From positions 1,178,001-1,242,000 of the forward strand of contig NZ_FXBM01000002.1 in assembly GCF_900177245.1 (NCBI RefSeq): a stretch of 64,000 bases of DNA. Reading direction: 5' to 3'. Origin of the DNA: Rathayibacter oskolensis. Lineage in GTDB: Bacteria; Actinomycetota; Actinomycetes; Actinomycetales; Microbacteriaceae. The notes beneath the pieces were generated by a model that saw only the letters and a program-made list of their open reading frames with translations, had not been told where the DNA came from and ran no database searches. Positions 17,580 to 55,531 of this stretch are shown one piece after another (the first letter of the stretch is position 1; each line of letters starts with the position of its first letter). A program made the translations under genes and the position numbers.

Positions 17580-17718
17580 CGCCGGGTCCGCACTCTCGGG
17601 AGTCGCCTCCGCGGCTGTCGTCCTGCGGGTCGAACGCGGCGGGCCGGTACCCGTCGCGTTCGACCGCGCGCACCAGGAGGAGGAGCGCACTCCCCGCCGC
17701 CGGAGGTGGCCCGCTCGA

Positions 17719-17926
17719 GTGGGATCTGCAGGCGACGGTGCGATTCGCAGGTGTCCGCGCGATCAGCAGGTGCCGGTGCGGTCTGCAGGAGGCCCCTGTG
17801 CGATCTGCAGGAGATCGCAGGGGGAACGCGCTCTCCTCCGCACGGCCGGCGCCACGAGGGCCCGATCGGCTGCAGATCGCACGACCACCTCCTGCAGATC
17901 GCACGACCGCCTCCTGCAGATCGCAC
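17719..17926 (+). repeat. Repeat array: five direct 19-bp units then three inverted units
   Basis: This lies inside the 444-bp gap 17580-18023, which otherwise shows no gene. Five direct units start at 17719, 17738, 17757, 17776 and 17798 with core GTGCGATCTGCAGG. After a 50-nt spacer, three inverted copies of the core (CCTGCAGATCGCAC) end at 17882, 17904 and 17926. Direct units are 19 bp apart (the last 22) and inverted units 22 bp apart. A transcript across it could fold into a long multi-unit stem. A sister array of the same 5+3 design lies at 55379-55531. A TAGGCT box follows at 17956-17961, possibly the -10 of the aspartase gene. Confidence 0.9.
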
Positions 17927-55378: not shown

Positions 55379-55531
55379 GTGCGCTTGCAGGTGCCGGAGC
55401 GCTTTCCAGGTGCCTGTGCGGTTCGAAGGTGCCGGTGCGGTTCGCAGGTGTCTGTGCGGTTCGCAGGCACCCACCCACACCTGCGCATCGCACCCACTCC
55501 TCCAGATCGCACCGCCACCTGCAGACCGCAC
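55379..55531 (+). repeat. Second repeat array: five direct units then three inverted units
   Basis: Between thyX and dapA, direct units start at 55379, 55397, 55416, 55435 and 55454 (core GTGCGGTTCGCAGG; spacing 18-19). After only 12 nt, three inverted units end at 55493, 55512 and 55531, spaced exactly 19 (for example CCTGCAGACCGCAC). The 5+3 layout is the same as at 17719-17926, but the spacer is shorter and the units are more varied. Bases after it (55532-55586) lead into the dapA -10 box. Confidence 0.9.

Follow-up and report, generated by a model that had tools for sequence, protein, structure and literature searches.

The closest described counterparts of the repeat reported here are the REP, BIME, REPIN and BOX elements. 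In the passages cited, enterobacterial REPs are placed mostly downstream of genes, between convergent or tandem genes (PMC3733652), and some REPs are characterized as protein sites, as exemplified by gyrase at BIME-2 (PMC6379681). BIMEs are portrayed as being composed of palindromic units in alternating orientation in the cited part of PMC2817692, and that of PMC3733652 takes GT pairs, where frequent, to indicate a function as RNA. Moreover, the REPIN GI doublet is given a distance of 71 bp in the corresponding part of PMC3116915, and the BOX element of Streptococcus pneumoniae appears in the cited section of PMC3049150 as a composite intergenic repeat containing a module in variable tandem number. 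Literature searches for repeats in Rathayibacter, Microbacteriaceae, Microbacterium and Clavibacter/Leifsonia as well as for the unit letters returned no description of the present element among the matches listed.

The repeat was analyzed starting from a 64,000-nucleotide stretch of Rathayibacter oskolensis DNA (hereafter the window), in which copies of TGCGATCTGCAGG, five direct and three inverted, occupy positions 17720-17925. Features of this array and of a second array in the window are as follows:

17720..17732, + strand, direct unit 1, TGGGATCTGCAGG, 1 mismatch
17739..17751, + strand, direct unit 2, TGCGATTCGCAGG, 2 mismatches
17758..17770, + strand, direct unit 3, CGCGATCAGCAGG, 2 mismatches
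17777..17789, + strand, direct unit 4, TGCGGTCTGCAGG, 1 mismatch
17799..17811, + strand, direct unit 5, innermost, TGCGATCTGCAGG, perfect
17799..17881, + strand, core module consisting of the innermost direct unit, a 57-nt centre and the innermost inverted unit, start-to-start 70
17820..17841, + strand, inner inverted repeat within the core, GGGGGAACGCGCTCTCCTCCGC, displaced to the side of the direct arm, based on the alignment of 70 cores (no gap in this stretch), with covariation on its axis
17869..17881, - strand, inverted unit 1, innermost, 1 mismatch
17891..17903, - strand, inverted unit 2, perfect
17913..17925, - strand, inverted unit 3, perfect
55417-55530, unstranded, second array, belonging to the same family, with direct units at 55436 and 55455, inverted units at 55480, 55499 and 55518, all at 19 bp

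The first-pass annotation had described five direct and three inverted copies, and this arrangement was confirmed, as were the direct period of 19 bp with a last gap of 22 (19, 19, 19 and 22 between unit starts) and the inverted period of 22 bp (22 and 22). The separation of the two arms, put there at about 50 nt, is indeed present and measures 57 nt between the facing units. The perfect 14-bp match claimed for the last direct unit and two inverted units was also recovered, since GTGCGATCTGCAGG (17798-17811) recurs as perfect inverted copies at 17890-17903 and 17912-17925. Allowing up to three mismatches, the 13-mer was counted 48 times in the window vs 28 +/- 5 times in shuffled sequences, and none of 100 shuffles reached 48.

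Regarding its surroundings, domain matches agree with the placement between a permease and an aspartase gene given by the first-pass annotation, the former being an amino-acid permease (PF00324/PF13520) and the latter a Lyase_1/FumaraseC_C gene of the aspartase/fumarase class. The array lies in tandem gene context, 140 bp past the permease stop; open frames cross it, and a simple codon-usage caller places no gene within. Furthermore, a stem-loop with a 16-bp stem and a 6-nt loop follows the permease stop at 17628-17665 and is probably the permease's own terminator. Over the best segment, the window permease is 98% identical to that of Rathayibacter sp. VKM Ac-2754 (L001/G001), 93% to that of Leaf185 (L002/G002), 90% to that of VKM Ac-2857 (L003/G003) and 91% to that of VKM Ac-2856 (L004/G004).

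The second array lies in the gap between a gene of the Thy1 family and a dapA-like gene of the DHDPS family, upstream of the latter. Its facing units are 12 nt apart (start-to-start 25), and a weaker direct unit with four mismatches was read by eye at 55417. It is a variant without the core centre.

TGCGATCTGCAGG was searched with up to one mismatch in five related genomes (G001-G005), where it is dispersed with 63, 125, 28, 86 and 20 matches vs 2, 1, 2, 5 and 1 for the reversed-pattern control. A covariance model of the core matched all 15 genomes of the genus of G002 (hereafter the genus genomes) with 3 to 66 matches each at E <= 0.01, both strands being counted and the best 150 candidates scored. 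At the family level, the model, for which only the best 15 candidates of each genome were scored, matched 39 of 299 genomes at E <= 0.001, and the exact unit TGCGRTCTGCAGG reached 10 or more copies in 7 of 398 genomes. The family pattern TGCAGGNGATN{34,60}ATCNCCTGCA was detected in 35 of the 398 family genomes and its control in none; in five of the 35 (G021, G067, G132, G232, G346) matching outer arms were absent at the examined locus, and the match in G067, G132 and G232 is one near-identical 63-nt stretch that looks coding. Outside the family, it matched 3 of 307 genomes of the order, including G002 itself and two others with one match each, and its control matched 1 of 307. Searched with one pattern for a phage origin, viral contigs yielded 0 matches. 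In Rathayibacter, the window array belongs to a set of dozens of copies spread over the chromosome, and the same design occurs patchily in Microbacteriaceae. Absence of the unit elsewhere and lack of conservation, which the first-pass annotation had named as evidence against its own reading, are excluded, the design being present in 15/15 genus genomes and its place being partly conserved. Among the matches listed for G359:C1, element loci are concentrated at 0-1.5 and 3.4-3.87 Mb, and two lie in the interval that separates these regions.

An initial pattern, CTGCAGGN{42,72}CCTGCAG, was discarded as not discriminating: it matched 14/15 genus genomes vs 13/15 for its reversed control, which was the commoner of the two in G003, G223 and G403, and its use was limited to revealing the 71-72-bp cluster.

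Across Rathayibacter, the minimal core comprises 83/84 bp and consists of two facing 13-bp units, 70/71 bp apart from start to start, with an offset inner inverted repeat between them. Among 71 distinct arrays, for which distances of 66-75 bp were allowed, the innermost facing distance is 70 in 46, 71 in 24 and 69 in one; when the allowed range was 13-200 bp, a spacing of 70 or 71 bp was found for 48 of 53 pairs of adjacent units that face each other. Same-strand neighbour units follow each other at 19 bp in 119 of 149 cases and at 22 bp in ten (13-60 bp allowed). Arms carry one to eight units, the extra ones being added outwards in tandem every 19 bp and with no side bias (104 vs 108). Since 21 of the 71 arrays are of the 1+1 type, we regard the core module as the basic element, to which ladders have often been added. 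In G004, eight tandem core modules are packed into 922 bp (L090:808-1729), flanked by genes for a luciferase-like monooxygenase and a protein of the NMN-transporter family.

Seventy cores could be aligned without gaps through the left arm and the inner motif, giving the consensus TgCGATCTGCAGGnGATC....GC.GGAAnnCGCTTCCnCCGC, followed by a variable stretch of 23-24 nt and then GGATCnCCTGCAGATCGCA; the cores were oriented by iteration, a step that favours the inner motif by construction. The family consensus of the inner inverted repeat reads GC.GGAAnnCGCTTCCnCCGC, and the unit consensus TGCGATCTGCAGG is palindromic only in CTGCAG. Unit types differ between genomes: TGCG accounts for 97 of 123 units in G002 and TCCG for 47 of 70 in G004, and in G359 CACG (26 of 89) and TGCG (20 of 89) were found. 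Such genome-specific types would be the behaviour expected of individual recognition sites for one trans-acting factor.

In other genera the same design is found with TGCAGG kept and other flanks, as in the arms GTGCCAAATGCAGGAGAT (G042), TGCGAAATGCAGGAGAT (G278) and CGTTCTGCAGGCGATC (G267); G182 carries three direct units of GCTGTTGTGCAGGAG at 18 bp. The length from TGCAGG to CCTGCA, with 52-88 allowed, was determined for 34 elements outside Rathayibacter as 57 (2), 59 (2), 69 (7), 70 (17), 71 (5) and 80 (1), corresponding to classes of 57-59 in four, 69-71 in 29 and 80 in one. The steps between these spacing classes are roughly one B-DNA turn, with only 5 of the 34 elements lying outside the 70-bp class. 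The 80-bp element is situated at L188:1501-1580 in G046, a genome that also has the 70-bp form. In G042 (L151-L154, L177), GAGTCACAC lies near one arm in 5/5 copies and represents a lineage-specific inner motif replacing GGAAnnCGCTTCC. Moreover, G367 (L169, L170), a 2.5-Mb genome outside the 15-genome genus set, has the Rathayibacter-type arm TGCGATCTGCAGG at a start distance of 72 bp.

The position of arrays relative to genes was surveyed in the window and 40 regions, with gene calls made by the simple codon-usage caller trained on the window and starts therefore approximate. Array-bearing gaps (42) comprise 18 convergent, 19 tandem and 5 divergent ones vs 7, 50 and 28 among 85 other gaps of at least 60 bp in the same regions (convergent P = 1e-5; divergent P = 0.011). 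Measured from the array edge, 3' ends of genes lie at a median of 27 bp (n=55) and 5' ends at a median of 80 bp (n=29). Arrays sit near gene 3' ends and favour convergent gaps.

Concerning conservation in place, several element sites occur in more than one species, for example in the pairs G002-G001, G002-G359 and G001-G359. The aspartase gene is present in 14/15 genus genomes, and at its site a canonical array was recognized, under one set of thresholds, in three of the 14 (G399 with 1+7, G359 with 1+4 and G402 with 1+3 units). A degenerate array with units at the wrong distance was observed in G332, and the other 10 of 14 genomes either lacked an array or had single units in scattered positions. 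Unlike the window's permease, the gene across the array from the aspartase gene points away from it in G359 and G402. The array at the aspartase site is old but often lost, and its canonical form in only 3/14 relatives indicates that no single site is indispensable. Elements of different genera share neighbours that we take, from their sequences, to be rsmI-pmt, thiL-rsmD and sufS-mnmA, and by coordinates the element lies beside rsmI in G062 and G230 too. Conservation in place across genera was nevertheless set aside, because the occupancies in the examined loci (2/30 at the mnmA site, 1/30 at the rsmI site) were judged compatible with chance.

Sites shared between species keep the element while its centre decays to background. 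At these sites, identity of the variable part is 0.78 for G003-G004, 0.45-0.59 for G001-G002 and 0.23-0.45 for more distant pairs, with a background of 0.35; identity of the arms is 0.73-0.96, with a background of 0.85. For the closely related pair G359 and G399, 17 orthologous cores were kept of 21 examined, two of the four dropped cores having matched a non-orthologous place, one being without a match and one unaligned. Differences in the arms amount to 20/442 (4.5%), a value measured on cores that had been found by their arms, with the G399 loci themselves picked from matches. The corresponding values are 92/808 (11.4%) for the centre, 443/3745 (11.8%) for other intergenic DNA, 295/6995 (4.2%) for coding DNA and 21/170 for the arm extension, so that arms differ from centres at P = 3e-5 and from intergenic DNA at P = 5e-7. 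A neutral simulation, run with detection filters of our own choice, gave an expectation of 11% in the arms (P = 1e-6). Outer units (68/568, 12.0%) change as fast as other intergenic DNA and are slow only with respect to their own spacers (66/273, 24.2%; P = 1e-5). Unit numbers differ at several G359/G399 sites, including the aspartase site with 4+1 vs 7+1, and the listed arrays of the two genomes have a core distance of 70 or 71, with a single exception (73). As judged from these substitution patterns, the innermost arms are clearly constrained.

Based on the observed dispersal, register, placement and slow arm substitution, we interpret the array, with moderate confidence, as a dispersed, selected recognition element on which a putative DNA-binding protein docks; the protein, its bridging along the same face and a boundary role at gene ends are inferred. 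Each unit would be the binding site of a sequence-specific protein that co-evolves with its sites in each genome, and protomers on two facing units may touch across about 70 bp of DNA on one helix face. Contact between facing protomers might then account for the tight register and, in other genera, for spacing steps of roughly one helical turn, and the outward unit arrays could raise occupancy. At gene 3' ends, the bound complex would most likely represent a topological or transcriptional boundary between neighbour genes, by analogy with the BIME-2 gyrase sites of E. coli as described in the cited part of PMC6379681. Both a site for a nucleoid (DNA-binding) protein and a REP-like repeat had been listed as options by the first-pass annotation, and each fits the dispersal, the conserved design and the partial conservation in place. 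Among the gene families beside elements of different genera, which mostly reflect orthologous neighbourhoods and were not all named, no candidate for the trans-acting factor stood out. The docking reading is further weakened by the covariation of the inner repeat, the small number of elements outside the 70-bp class, the canonical array in only 3/14 relatives at the aspartase site, the choice of cores by their arms and the fast change of the outer units.

A rather unlikely alternative to protein docking is a REPIN- or MITE-like non-autonomous mobile element whose arms are recognized by a transposase, in which case only copies with good arms would move and the arms would merely look selected. 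The REPIN-like shape of an inverted doublet with fixed spacing, divergent centre and genome-specific arms speaks for it, as do the tandem core clusters of up to eight modules in L090 and the patchy family distribution with pattern matches in 35/398 genomes. However, a REP-type (Y1) transposase, which the first-pass annotation had suggested looking for, did not turn up: Y1/RAYT (PF01797) was found in 0/15 genus genomes and in 0/28 genomes of a second search, two of which (G021 and G346) are unconfirmed bearers of the element, that is, in none of 39 genomes with four overlapping between the sets, and the search was positive in 5/14 control genomes. The 25 most-alike inner-part pairs of the 70 cores are, moreover, all local copies or orthologues; as no pair from distant loci of one genome is among them, no recent copying is visible. 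The arms of old orthologous copies are conserved while their centre has decayed to background, for which mobility alone is an insufficient explanation. With respect to MITEs, terminal inverted repeats were found and dispersed copies with a similar interior were not; flanks read by eye showed no obvious target-site duplication, and the empty-site alignment at the window site (L002) gave no clean borders. Membership in the REPINs with RAYT was rejected: the doublet and the fixed spacing are there (48/53) and the Y1 gene is not, and the unit consensus has neither GTAG nor CGTC and is not an imperfect palindrome so tagged. Since no Y1/RAYT gene was found in the 39 genomes, the element was not filed as a REPIN.

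Less probable still is a transcribed RNA hairpin at gene ends, acting as a bidirectional terminator, an attenuator or an RNase III substrate. The location of arrays at gene 3' ends and between convergent genes would suit such a function, and the + strand RNA of the array folds at -133.9 kcal/mol (z = -4.8), a very stable fold given which a hairpin may form at the window array. The multi-unit RNA or cruciform hairpin proposed by the first-pass annotation is not supported as the entity under selection. Identity of facing units is 11.40/13 within arrays (n=25) vs 11.42 between arrays (n=600) in G002, and 10.94/13 (n=18) vs 11.24 (n=306) in G359; on the sense strand, G-U and A-C combinations number 19 vs 18 in 40 tandem-context cores from 27 loci, and 17 vs 14 when each locus is represented by a single core. 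Since facing arms match no better within arrays and G-U is no commoner than A-C, there is no sign that pairing of the arms is selected. Most of the covariation falls on the inner repeat and the arm extension. The largest Watson-Crick excess occurs in column pairs 25-38 and 28-35 on the inner-repeat axis, and the covarying pairs include 14-72, which lies on the outer axis (59 of 70 rows kept). For the named structure in 54 sequences, cells with both sides changed number 72 vs 47.6 +/- 6.1 after shuffling (reached by 0/500 shuffles), pairs with two-sided change 15 vs 12.9 (57/500) and further pair types 38 vs 34.4 (50/500); of five covariation measures, three lie above every one of the 500 shuffles, unlike these last two. 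The covariation of the inner repeat speaks for a hairpin but would equally be produced by a dimer site. Against an RNA function, the inner motif shows no preferred orientation with respect to transcription (9 sense, 11 antisense), and the stem-loop of the permease at 17628-17665 is kept unchanged in L002, which has no array. In addition, RNAalifold retained only 6 consensus pairs, and Rfam gave no match at gathering score in the window and none at E up to 1 around the array.

Very improbable is a reading as functionless, decaying selfish repeats of minisatellite type that local slippage and gene conversion keep together: the unit number varies between close species as at the aspartase site of G359/G399, neighbouring same-arm units are slightly more alike (11.67/13, n=73) and outer units diverge like other intergenic DNA, but inner arms (4.5% vs 11.8% in intergenic DNA) and core length are constrained while centre and flanks drift, and the distance between facing units stays the same from species to species and, in another class, from genus to genus.

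Extending the protein-docking reading to the family, we tentatively consider, as an idea that may well not hold, a chromosome-wide docking system of Microbacteriaceae. A putative protein would read a unit centred on TGCAGG, and lineage by lineage the flank of this unit would be re-coded along with the sites; pairs would be bridged on one helix face across about 58, 70 or 80 bp, with 19-bp ladders as a reinforcement in Rathayibacter, and would mark gene 3' ends as boundaries. These results bear on the question of whether intergenic palindromic repeats are selfish passengers or working protein sites, a question that the fixed register makes testable. Furthermore, the unit ladders provide ready-made VNTR markers for Rathayibacter.

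In comparison with known systems, the element shares with the REPINs of Pseudomonas and others an inverted pair of short sequences at fixed distance, a variable centre, a genome-specific type, tens of copies and an intergenic location. It differs from them in that no Y1/RAYT was found in the genomes searched, in that its unit contains neither the GTAG/CGTC tag nor an internal hairpin, and in that the Rathayibacter element has outward tandem 19-bp arrays, conservation in place and slow arm substitution. It is of interest as a REPIN-shaped repeat where the transposase supposed to explain REPINs was not found and where evidence points to selection of the arms site by site. Like REP/BIME elements, the Rathayibacter arrays occur at gene 3' ends and favour convergent gaps; unlike in BIMEs, the unit forms no hairpin, and on either side all units point the same way, towards a fixed centre. 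G-U is not favoured in the arrays, in contrast to the sign of RNA function in the cited part of PMC3733652. BOX resembles the element as an intergenic composite in which one module varies in tandem copy number. By description the two are set apart, since in BOX the variable module lies between the ends, whereas in Rathayibacter the variable units lie outside a constant core. Taken together, the best reading, with no RAYT found in 39 genomes, is that of a dispersed, selected recognition element for a putative DNA-binding protein, which has the shape of a REPIN and belongs to the REP/BIME/REPIN kind.
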